Positions 21,920 through 31,382 of a stretch of DNA of 34,141 nt are shown here, piece by piece. Under the pieces are notes generated by a model. That model did no database searches, had not been told where the DNA came from, and saw nothing but the letters and a program-made list of their open reading frames with translations. The translations under genes and the position numbers were made by a program. Positions within the stretch are counted from its first letter, which is position 1. Every line of letters begins with the position of its first letter. The stretch is from Candidatus Daviesbacteria bacterium RIFCSPLOWO2_01_FULL_39_12. Its GTDB lineage: Bacteria; Patescibacteriota; Microgenomatia; Daviesbacterales; UBA10151. The stretch covers positions 1 to 34,141 of the forward strand of contig MFDM01000023.1 of NCBI GenBank assembly GCA_001776905.1, in the 5' to 3' direction.

Positions 21920-23227
21920 CTAATCTATCTTACCATGAAGATATGATTTCAAGTCAACTATCTTTACCCTCTCTTGTTTGGCGCTGTCTCTATCTCTGAC
22001 TGTCACCATTTCATCTTCCAGGCTTTGGAAATCTACTGTCACGCAAAATGGTGTACCAATCTCATCCTGGGAAGCATATCTTCCTCCAATATTTCCCCTA
22101 TCATCCCATGCGCTTATAAAATCCTGTTTTAAATCCTGGTAAATCTTTTTTGCCAAACCCACTAATTTTGGTTTGTTGGCAAGAAGTGGAAAAACAGCCA
22201 CCTTGTACGGTGCTAGTTTTTGATGCAGTTTCAGGATGGTTCGTCCACCTTCTTCAGAATATGCATCGACCAATAAAAACAAAGCTGCCCTATCAACCCC
22301 TCCTGATGTTTCAATAACCCATGGTAAATACTCTTCACCTGTATCCGGATCACGATATTTCATATCCTGACCACTATACTGCTCATGTCTTGACAAATCC
22401 CAATCACCTCTGTGATGTATCCCTTCAAATTCAGACCACCCAAATGGGGAGTTATATTCTATATCAGTGGCTGCCTTGGCATAATGGGCCCGTTCTTTCT
22501 CCTCATGATCTCTAAACCTTAAGTTCTCTTTCTTAATTCCCAAAGATAAATACCAGTCCATTCTTTGTTTCTTCCAGTACTCAAACCACTTTTGATCCTC
22601 TTTTCCTTTAGGATCTATGTAATATTGAATTTCCATCTGCTCAAACTCTCTTGATCTGAAGGTAAAATTTCCCGGGGTAATTTCATTACGAAAAGACTTA
22701 CCAACTTGAGCAATACCAAAGGGAATTTTCACCCTGGTGGAATCTAAAACATTTTTAAAATTAACATGAACTCCCTGGGTAATTTCTCCCCTAAGATAAA
22801 TTTCAGACTGTTTATCTTCTAAAACACCCAGATAAGCCTTAACCAGCAGGTTAAATTTTTGGGGCTGGGTCCACTCTACCTTTCCATCATGGGATTTCTC
22901 GTGTTCTAAAGTCTCACGAGTATGGTCAGCTCTAAATCGCGCGTGGCATACTTTACACTCCACCAACGGATCTGTAAATGCCTCCACATGTCCGGAAGCC
23001 TCCCAAACTTTGGGGTTTAACATGATGGCAGAATCTATCCCCACCATGTCTTCGCGAAGTTGAACCACATCCTTCCACCACTGCCTCTTTATATTGTTTT
23101 TTAACTCTACCCCTAAAGGACCATAATCCCAAGTCCCACCCAAACCTCCGTAAATTTCCGAACCAGGATATATAAATCCCCGTCTTTTACATAAAGCCAC
23201 AATTTTTTGCATTAAATCATCATTCAT
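21920..23227 (-). CDS. glyS: Glycyl-tRNA synthetase, homodimeric class II type
   Basis: The enzyme charges tRNA-Gly. It is the single-chain alpha2 form, not the two-gene alpha2beta2 form. It opens with KRRGFIYPGSEIYGG and TWDYGPLGVELKNNIKRQWW. A CKVC pair (91-94) marks a small zinc-like insertion. Class II motif 2 is seen in GKSFRNEITP and REFEQMEIQYY. Glycine-recognition segments include GWSEFEGIHHRGDWDL, and motif 3 is ETSGGVDRAALFLL. The C-terminal anticodon domain begins APYKVAVFPLL. It is 435 aa. The frame is open to 23272, but that extension is encoded by a palindromic repeat, and AAGG sits 6 nt before the ATG at 23227, which fixes the start. It lies 10 nt after recO. Confidence 0.96.
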   Translation of the reverse strand: MNDDLMQKIVALCKRRGFIYPGSEIYGGLGGTWDYGPLGVELKNNIKRQWWKDVVQLREDMVGIDSAIMLNPKVWEASGHVEAFTDPLVECKVCHARFRADHTRETLEHEKSHDGKVEWTQPQKFNLLVKAYLGVLEDKQSEIYLRGEITQGVHVNFKNVLDSTRVKIPFGIAQVGKSFRNEITPGNFTFRSREFEQMEIQYYIDPKGKEDQKWFEYWKKQRMDWYLSLGIKKENLRFRDHEEKERAHYAKAATDIEYNSPFGWSEFEGIHHRGDWDLSRHEQYSGQDMKYRDPDTGEEYLPWVIETSGGVDRAALFLLVDAYSEEGGRTILKLHQKLAPYKVAVFPLLANKPKLVGLAKKIYQDLKQDFISAWDDRGNIGGRYASQDEIGTPFCVTVDFQSLEDEMVTVRDRDSAKQERVKIVDLKSYLHGKID

Positions 23228-23237
23228 ATTCGCCTTG

Positions 23238-23274
23238 TCATTGCGAGCCCCGCCGCAGGCGGAGCGTGGCAATC
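23238..23274. repeat. Palindromic repeat element at the recO-glyS junction
   Basis: The element runs from TCATTGCGAG to GTGGCAATC. Outer arms ATTGC (23240-23244) and GCAAT (23269-23273) enclose a perfect inner stem CCGCC (23250-23254) GCA GGCGG (23258-23262). It is very GC-rich against an AT-rich background. It looks like the TCATTGCGAG...GGCAATC class of dispersed palindromes found in several bacterial groups (my recollection of the type, not checked). It encodes the last eleven residues (IATLRLRRGSQ) and stop of recO. Confidence 0.75.
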
Positions 23275-23927
23275 TTACTTAAAAACCTCCTGCTTTTTAA
23301 TTGGCCCTCAATCACTCTTTCTACATGATATCGTAATACACGTTCCAGTTCCAGAGCCTGTTTTTCCTTTATCTCTATTTTTTCTATCTCATCCCAATTC
23401 AATTCCTCCAAATTTTTGAGCAAATCCCTTAGGTGTCTACCTAACACACCTCCAGGGTGTGGTACGTTCACACCTTGGTAGGCAAAACTAAGAAAGCCTA
23501 AATTAGAAAGTATTTTTGCCTCAAATGCCCGAACTAAAATCTGGCGGGGGTTTTTCTCGAGCCTTTTCAAAACATTTACCAAATGCTCGTACAAAATCCT
23601 GCTTTCCTGGTTTTCTGCTGTTAATTTATCTACCAGTTCCAAAAGATGATAGGCATAGGTTGATAATGTTAAATCCTCTTTCAGTCTGGAATAAGATTCC
23701 AGAGTAGTTGCTTCTGTTAAAATCGGCATGCCTTTCCCCTGATGTAAATATAGAATACTTCTGTTTAAAAGCTCTATATTCCCGGCTCGACGGGAGGTAA
23801 TTCTTCTGACTCCTTTTGCCAAAATAGAAATTTTGCCTTTTTGAAGAGAAAAAACAGTCAAAATCCGATCCGCCTCCCCAAAATCCTTCCTCTTTAAAAT
23901 AATCCCTTCAGTCTTAAACCCTCTCAT
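23238..23927 (-). CDS. recO: DNA repair protein RecO
   Basis: RecO works with RecR and RecF to load RecA on gapped DNA and anneals single strands. The 229-aa protein starts with the RecO OB-fold: FKTEGIILKRKDFGEADRILTVFS, then KGKISILAKGVRRITSRRAGNIELL. The helical C-terminal domain follows, with YEHLVNVLKRLEKNP. The zinc-finger cysteines common in this family are absent. In their place is YQGVNVPHPGGVLGRHLR, encoded by DNA full of inverted repeats (23429-23474). The last eleven residues and the stop come from a palindromic repeat at the glyS boundary, so the native end has probably been replaced. There is no clear promoter in the 86-nt gap upstream. Confidence 0.88.
   Translation of the reverse strand: MRGFKTEGIILKRKDFGEADRILTVFSLQKGKISILAKGVRRITSRRAGNIELLNRSILYLHQGKGMPILTEATTLESYSRLKEDLTLSTYAYHLLELVDKLTAENQESRILYEHLVNVLKRLEKNPRQILVRAFEAKILSNLGFLSFAYQGVNVPHPGGVLGRHLRDLLKNLEELNWDEIEKIEIKEKQALELERVLRYHVERVIEGQLKSRRFLSKIATLRLRRGSQ
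23429..23474. repeat. Cluster of nested inverted repeats inside recO
   Basis: On the plus strand TTAGGT (23429-23434) pairs with ACCTAA (23439-23444). CACACC (23445-23450) pairs with GGTGTG (23456-23461), and that GGTGTG can instead pair with CACACC (23469-23474). So 46 bp consist almost wholly of perfect 6-bp arms with 4- to 7-nt loops, allowing alternative hairpins. It lies in frame, where RecO proteins often have a zinc finger. Confidence 0.6.
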
Positions 23928-29916: not shown

Positions 29917-31382
29917 GGTTCCGGATCTAAATTGTCATCAAAAGGAGCATTCAGCTTTGTTAAATCAACTATGATAAATTGATCGCTTTCCAAAAGGGGC
30001 TGAAAATGCCTCATCACCCAAGTAGTTTTAGCATCTTTTGTTGTCGAAACATAGTGTGTCACTCCGTAATCTGCAACCATCTCTTTAACTGGTAAATAAA
30101 CAAACGGGAAGCCCCCTCTGTTTATCTGATACAAAAAGGCGGTGTCCCCATTATATGGCGCTAACACAATGGCATTTTTAGGCAGTAATTTATCAGCCAC
30201 CTTTCCCGCCTCAACAATTGCAGGATTGTTTATCTTATAAAACTCTTTATCAACTTTGAAAGTAAAATAAAACGTCAGTAAAAGTAGCATGAAGGCAACA
30301 GGGATTGTCCATATTCTAGCAAGATTATTAGGGATACCTTTGATTAAACTAACCAGTCCAATTGAAAGAAAAATTGCACCAATTGGCACAAATATATACT
30401 GATAATAGTTATGTCTGACATTCCCTGTGGCAACTATTGAAAAATATAAAATCATCGAGGCAAGCCAAATATGCAAAAAATAGCTTTTTTGTTTTATCAA
30501 AACCCCGATTACAAAAAGAGCAAAGCCTGCAACCGATAAAATTTCTCTGCCTAATCTTTCTGATACTAACCACCAGAAAAAAGCCGGTCTGAATCTTATC
30601 CCGTCGCCATTTAAAAGCCATGAAGAGGCAGGAATACCTTGAGGTTGTTGCAATATCCAAAGTCTCCAAAGTAAAAATGGGGTGATTGCCAGTAAAAACA
30701 ATCCTCCATACTTTAAAAATCCGCTTATTTTCTTTTCTTTAACAAAGATGGAGTAAACTAGTGGAAAGACGAAAAATATTGCCCATGGTTTCATCAGAAA
30801 AGCAATCATAGTAAAGACAAACCCCCATATACCCCAAGCAAATCTTCTTTCCCATATCGCTCTGTCTGAAAAGTACACCATCCCTAATGCAAAAAATAGA
30901 AAGGTTGGTTCGGGTAAAGTGGTCCTTGAAAAAAATACATTAAACGGTAAGAGCGCATAGATCGTGGTCGCAATAAAGGAAGTAAAAATATCTAAATATC
31001 TTTTTGATATAAGATAGACAAAAACAATACTTCCCAACGAAAATAGGACTGAAACCAATCTGTGGAAGCTATCATTTATACCAAACAGTAAATATAGCGG
31101 ATAAACAAAAATATTATATATAGGAAATTCCACAAATCTGTATTGTTCGGTGTTGACCATTGGCATTTCTGAAACTCCGGACATATCATCATATTTGGGA
31201 TAAAAGGGATTAAAACCAAGCTTAATAAAATTTCTGGTCACAGCTGCTGTATCTGTTTGTCTCCAGGAGTGCCAATCCGCAATCGGTGAATCAATCTTAT
31301 AAAGCCTTACCAAAAAAGCCAAAACTAAAATTACACCCAACCAAAAATATTGATTTGTTAAAAGATTCACAATCCTCCTCAT
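29913..31382 (-). CDS. GT39/ArnT-like membrane glycosyltransferase (GT-C fold)
   Basis: This 489-aa polytopic protein has about ten or more membrane helices, a first outer loop and a soluble C-terminal tail (about 385-489). The first loop reads DSPIADWHSWRQTDTAAVTRN (about 31-51), the characteristic region of PMT/ArnT-type enzymes. These use a polyprenyl-phosphate sugar as donor on the outer face of the membrane. EMPMVNTEQYRFVEFPIYN and the helix-rich middle fit the same family. It is joined to both neighbours by ATGA overlaps. A role in modifying the exported glycan or surface proteins is inferred. No polyprenyl-phosphate sugar synthase is visible in the window. Confidence 0.85.
   Translation of the reverse strand: MRRIVNLLTNQYFWLGVILVLAFLVRLYKIDSPIADWHSWRQTDTAAVTRNFIKLGFNPFYPKYDDMSGVSEMPMVNTEQYRFVEFPIYNIFVYPLYLLFGINDSFHRLVSVLFSLGSIVFVYLISKRYLDIFTSFIATTIYALLPFNVFFSRTTLPEPTFLFFALGMVYFSDRAIWERRFAWGIWGFVFTMIAFLMKPWAIFFVFPLVYSIFVKEKKISGFLKYGGLFLLAITPFLLWRLWILQQPQGIPASSWLLNGDGIRFRPAFFWWLVSERLGREILSVAGFALFVIGVLIKQKSYFLHIWLASMILYFSIVATGNVRHNYYQYIFVPIGAIFLSIGLVSLIKGIPNNLARIWTIPVAFMLLLLTFYFTFKVDKEFYKINNPAIVEAGKVADKLLPKNAIVLAPYNGDTAFLYQINRGGFPFVYLPVKEMVADYGVTHYVSTTKDAKTTWVMRHFQPLLESDQFIIVDLTKLNAPFDDNLDPEP

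Follow-up and report, generated by a model that had tools for sequence, protein, structure and literature searches.

A palindromic repeat resembling CGTC-tagged REPs at the recO-glyS junction of a Daviesbacteria genome, with sibling copies inside the genes of its relatives

The recO-glyS junction

The window, by which we mean the whole stretch of 34,141 nucleotides analysed from contig MFDM01000023.1 of Candidatus Daviesbacteria bacterium RIFCSPLOWO2_01_FULL_39_12, carries recO and glyS in succession on its minus strand. recO (positions 23238 to 23927), identified by its matches to RecO_N, RecO_C and TIGR00613, encodes 229 amino acids, and glyS (21920 to 23227) encodes a glycine--tRNA ligase of the PRK04173 type, 435 amino acids long from the ATG at 23227. 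The TGA of recO and this ATG are separated by a gap of 10 bases on the same strand (23228 to 23237, CAAGGCGAAT), one fewer than the 11 claimed by the original prediction.

The end of recO is formed by a REP-like palindrome, a single unit of 39 bp on the plus strand (23237 to 23275) that reads GTC-ATTGC-GAG-CCCCGCCGCAGGCGGAG-CGTG-GCAAT-C-T, its GTC tag and 3' T included. The TGTC at 23236 to 23239 on the plus strand corresponds to the unpaired terminal motif by which CGTC/TGTC-tagged REPs are typically marked, recognized as such here from the conservation of the tag among 93 copies. The pattern TCATTGCGAG..GGCAATC matches the window once, at 23238 to 23274, and finds nothing in 100 shuffled versions; the palindrome predicted at the end of recO is real. 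A weak match to TGTCAT..arm at 29933 on the plus strand lacks the conserved ends and is probably due to chance. The RecO product ends in FLSK-IATLRLRRGSQ-TGA, in which the codons of IATLRLRRGSQ (residues 219 to 229) and the stop are element sequence; the final eleven codons and the stop of recO were thus rightly attributed to the palindrome, and at the level of DNA the element is used as coding sequence. The false N-terminal extension foreseen for glyS is likewise present, as the longest glyS ORF takes as its start a TTG inside the element and runs to 450 rather than 435 amino acids, the 15 spurious residues spanning 23228 to 23272 on the minus strand.

Neither as DNA (z -0.94, with 36 of 200 shuffles as stable) nor as RNA (z -1.32, 22 of 200) does the recO copy fold into a hairpin more stable than expected by chance. 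The case for the element rests on repetition: the genome (1,004,025 bases in 34 contigs) holds 12 strict copies, as against 0 for a reversed control pattern, and the copy at recO is therefore not unique but belongs to a repeat of the dispersed type that had been supposed. Five further copies represent a sister subtype ending AAGCAATC, and another four a second sister subtype with the outer stem ATTCC/GGAAT.

RecO was matched in 34 of 38 related genomes (this one included), and the gene was read through to its stop at 30 loci, again including our own. Comparison of these 3' ends indicates that the tail is not conserved: IATLRLRRGSQ is absent from RecO at the other 29 loci, and the proteins of the closest relatives end in FLRK, FLRKI, FLKQR, FLKKYE, FLKKI or FLKK, which is the point where the element starts here. 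Judged from these termini, the tail is new in this genome. In an AlphaFold2 model of RecO based on 18 sequences the mean pLDDT is 81 overall and about 52 for residues 211 to 229, which are modelled as a helix of low confidence. RecO C-termini are variable, and a distant relative (L150) ends in an unrelated and longer tail, which would leave room for reading IATLRLRRGSQ as an ordinary RecO C-terminus that resembles the repeat by coincidence. We find this scarcely credible for a tail that equals, base for base, a repeat with 12 genomic copies and that is missing from the closest relatives.

glyS is also found at 28 of the 30 recO loci, at distances ranging from direct adjacency to more than 1 kb, and the hairpin is absent from all other recO-glyS junctions among them. 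The absence of a second such junction, a fold within the range of shuffled sequences, and the position of most sibling copies inside unrelated ORFs all argue against the idea that the hairpin is kept for a task at the junction, such as processing or stabilisation of the mRNA or tuning of glyS translation. We regard this as improbable, even if a GC-rich hairpin does immediately precede the glyS start, and even if REPs elsewhere have been proposed to act as RNA elements, as set out in section 15 of the paper on CGTC-tagged REPs by Di Nocera, De Gregorio and Rocco (2013; PMC3733652).

Instead, we propose that a mobile hairpin resembling the CGTC-tagged REPs has, very probably, been inserted at the recO-glyS junction and is tolerated there as a probably neutral protein tail. 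A dispersed element of the CGTC-REP kind would have been transposed into the end of recO, where it adjoins glyS; an element-free allele from the same species was not encountered. Since no stop interrupts the bottom strand of the element (AGATTGCC...CTCGCAATGAC) in the entered frame before CAA-TGA, RecO would have gained about ten residues and a new stop, with the glyS start left 10 bases downstream; the tail would be translated and probably without effect. The insertion would have survived because the conserved ends are poor in stops, one usable stop is present, and the site lies where RecO already ended. Ribosomes would, on completing recO, open the hairpin before it could mask the start of glyS. 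The case illustrates how the terminus of a protein may be written by a mobile hairpin, and what errors gene finders make at such junctions.

Distribution, anatomy and kin of the element

The element occurs at 95 places in 14 of the 38 related genomes (our own included); two were dropped for identity of both sequence and flanks, and 93 distinct copies were analysed. When the phylum was sampled more widely it was present in 54 of 286 genomes, and the same ends also turn up under the titles of many other phyla, with at least 116 stretches and no fewer than 80 loci. At five loci (L031, L077, L106, L109 and L112) copies from two genomes share a nearly identical inner palindrome (GACTCCGAT..ATCGGAGGA), which suggests that a single subtype multiplied recently.

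Copies were found by a pattern that does not include the tag, so the conservation of the tag is independent of the search, while the outer ends are set by it. Of the 93 distinct copies, 92 have GTC ahead of the stem (GTT in the other), and in 91 this triplet follows a pyrimidine (T or C). In the recO copy the stem opens with A-T at its first two positions, a feature that the search patterns demanded. In architecture, an outer stem of 5 bp encloses an internal loop that is conserved and an inner palindrome that is hypervariable; the inner part measures 8 to 30 bases between the searched ends and takes 82 distinct sequences, and the stem is followed by CT and then by variable bases. Within an element, 65% of inner-arm positions form Watson-Crick pairs, compared with a mean of 44% when partners are swapped inside length classes; none of 2000 permutations of 78 distinct inner sequences reached the 65% (one copy that the pattern of the test did not accommodate was excluded). 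This is a stronger test than the folding of inner parts against shuffles, in which only 41 of the 82 sequences stand out. In one copy (L037, genome G020) the inner part seems to hold a further, nested palindrome, CCCTGAGCCTGTCGAAGGG.

An inverted partner lies within 40 bases of 47 of the 93 copies, at a spacing of 9 to 18 bases in 40 of these 47; the recO copy has none within that distance. The outer arm of the partner reads ATTGC in 23 cases, ATTCC in 16, ATCCT in 4, ATTTC in 2 and ATCGC in 2, counts that show the variety of arms and carry no independent proof of pairing, since the search demanded a complementary arm.

These traits recall the CGTC-tagged REPs as portrayed in the parts of PMC3733652 drawn on here: one end tagged with CGTC or TGTC, A-T first in the stem, mostly head-to-head dimers, and units that also lie within genes, UvrD and other DNA-repair genes among them. 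Our element shares the Y-GTC tag and the copies within genes; its AT-first stem was imposed by the search. Whereas head-to-head dimers predominate among the CGTC REPs, about half of our copies are paired, which is frequent rather than clearly predominant. The four published CGTC families are given stems of 8 to 9 bp, loops of 4 to 5 bases and a 3-base tail that is mostly CCA (PMC3733652), unlike the 5-bp outer stem, internal loop, variable inner palindrome and CT tail found here. On these grounds of sequence and layout we class the family as a structural variant of the CGTC-REP/RPE kind, outside families 1 to 4; the same paper counts the Rickettsia elements RPE-4 and RPE-6 among the CGTC REPs. 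With GTAG REPs and REPINs the element has in common short hairpins and inverted pairs with short spacers, but the tag differs and no copy examined lies beside a RAYT. According to section 15 of PMC3733652, flanking ORFs are described as receiving stop codons from the ends of GTAG REPs, just as recO is supplied with its stop here, and the recO copy is a mild example of an already known kind of event.

Transposases in the same genomes

Part of the evidence would suit a classical REPIN that is moved in trans by one of the REP-associated tyrosine transposases (RAYTs) of the genome. There are head-to-head pairs, and our genome has three Y1_Tnp (RAYT-like) genes, whose best family, REP_Tyr_transpos, is matched below its cut-off. 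At least one RAYT is found in 33 of the 38 genomes, with 112 matches in all, and across the 38 the number of copies correlates with the number of RAYTs (rho 0.56, p 0.0003, with no correction for ancestry), a correlation that shared ancestry or a general load of mobile elements may account for.

Other observations point away from such a partnership. Neither a strict copy nor the half-motif CATTGCGA occurs in 43 distinct RAYT locus records, some of which overlap. One RAYT of our genome (L071) is flanked by perfect 22-nt inverted repeats (467 to 488 and 1194 to 1215 of its locus) and a second lies between 13-nt inverted repeats, both sets unrelated to the element. In a tree of 95 RAYT proteins no clade is confined to the copy-rich genomes; the nearest comprises five genomes, one of them without copies. 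Given the locus records, the flanking repeats and the tree, a RAYT as dedicated mobiliser is unsupported, and we consider the REPIN reading rather unlikely. In having no RAYT locus with a copy and no RAYT clade that tracks it, the element resembles the CGTC REPs, for which, according to the parts of PMC3733652 used here, a dedicated transposase was not found and the mobiliser has been an open question in print since 2013. It could be sought in this lineage too.

Copies inside genes

Gene calls made with a dicodon model of our own, rather than taken from curated annotation, place 52 of the 93 copies within ORFs; of the others, 29 are intergenic and 12 lie at gene ends. Forty-one copies are deep inside ORFs, with at least 40 codons on each side. 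(An earlier codon model missed recO itself and was replaced.) Random windows of 36 bases from the same loci fall within ORFs in 85% of cases and deep inside them in 61%, so that genes are avoided, but only partly.

The original prediction held that the recO copy had been accepted as coding sequence, and the other copies in this genome agree: 8 of the 12 lie within ORFs and 1 forms the end of recO, with 1 ambiguous, upstream of thymidylate synthase, and 2 intergenic. The ORFs with an internal copy encode trigger factor, MurT, TsaD, ATP synthase gamma, an unassigned protein of 294 residues and a protein with CoaD-like and dephospho-CoA-kinase-like parts; in two of the eight the copy belongs to a putative N-terminal extension, of ribosomal proteins L1 and L4, whose starts are unproven. 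Over all 14 genomes, examples of genes with deep copies are tsaD, radA, atpG, murT and tig.

Orthologs or structures confirm clean insertions in four proteins. The TsaD match is interrupted in 19 of the 38 genomes, stopping at query residue 123 to 132 and resuming at 152 to 165; the gap brackets the double element of our genome, and structure 3zet lacks the same stretch. The loop that holds the double element is hypervariable, with different insertions in other relatives. In RadA of genome G016 the element falls within a 21-residue gap relative to 5lkm, and in ATP synthase gamma a gap of 9 residues coincides with the element. In MurT of three genomes (G000, G022 and G016) element sequence occupies about the same position, and most of 26 aligned orthologs have a short loop.

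The lengths of the units modulo 3 are distributed alike within genes (28, 16, 8) and between them (16, 9, 4), so frame selection on precise units is not visible. Relative to the gene, in-gene copies favour one orientation over the other (38 vs 14, p 0.001; 17 vs 7, p 0.06, for single copies only). The favoured orientation is the one with fewer stop-free frames in the conserved ends.

Several sites are shared between genomes. In six cross-genome pairs, copies in orthologous proteins lie no more than 4 alignment columns apart and differ in their inner sequences; a seventh pair, from a UvrD-like helicase of G006 (L038) and G016 (L112), occupies the same loop as judged by eye. The tsaD copies of G022 and G015 (L285 and L277) agree in flanks, position and orientation, and their inner palindromes, CTCCGCCTATGGCGGGG and GTCTGCCAAAGGCGGCC, differ while each is largely self-complementary. 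Shared sites may reflect inheritance with arm-to-arm correction or independent insertion at a permissive site. At sites with the look of inheritance, tsaD in two genomes among them, the inner palindrome would appear to change and yet to stay self-complementary, as if arm were copied from arm. The tsaD genes of other relatives have other insertions in the same loop and in a second loop.

The dicodon model was trained on the same loci, which is mildly circular, and the main contrast was therefore redone with a rule based on ORF length only. By this rule, which admitted 92 copies (GTT not being allowed), 40 of the 92 in the relatives lie deep in ORFs, compared with 9 of 85 scorable copies from other phyla (Fisher p 7e-7, related copies not being independent). 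The latter come from 73 loci not titled Patescibacteria among the at least 80 listed, and 15 further copies near contig ends fall outside the 85. Random positions are deep in about 0.6 of cases in relatives and other phyla alike. In the wider phylum sample 9 of 29 scorable copies are deep, as are 3 of 7 from loci bearing candidate-phyla titles; one of these loci (L208) overlaps with the set from the relatives.

Rickettsia palindromic elements lie in frame within many functional genes of a reduced-genome bacterium and were the subject of original papers by Ogata and colleagues. Our elements resemble them as palindromes in frame within genes, 41 of 93 being deep, and differ in host lineage and, presumably, in sequence. 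The lineage studied here consists of bacteria with tiny genomes that are probably host-dependent. We tentatively suggest, as a possibility slightly less likely than not, that a hairpin of the CGTC-REP kind has colonised the genes of this lineage on a scale like that in Rickettsia (about two fifths of copies deep, as against about a tenth at the listed loci of other phyla), that weak purging in reduced genomes would have permitted this twice independently, and that inner palindromes such as those in tsaD apparently change with arm copied from arm. If this is true, new loops and tails of proteins would routinely arise from a mobile DNA hairpin. The part worth following is the frequency of the element inside the genes of this lineage, which offers a second, unrelated setting for the question raised by Rickettsia of why small palindromes persist in essential genes, and is also suited to asking whether weak selection in reduced genomes explains such persistence.

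A search of titles and abstract openings found no account of such elements in candidate-phyla bacteria, and text matches to the motif strings of the element were, among those listed, unrelated by title. A term search of the available text of PMC3733652 likewise gave no mention of candidate-phyla bacteria. Two minor observations concern individual genes. The UvrD/PcrA-like helicase of G006 (L038) contains element sequence at two places, one of them a full head-to-head pair, and N-terminal extensions with the element occur in two genomes each for L1 (L010, L082) and for L4 (L012, L018).
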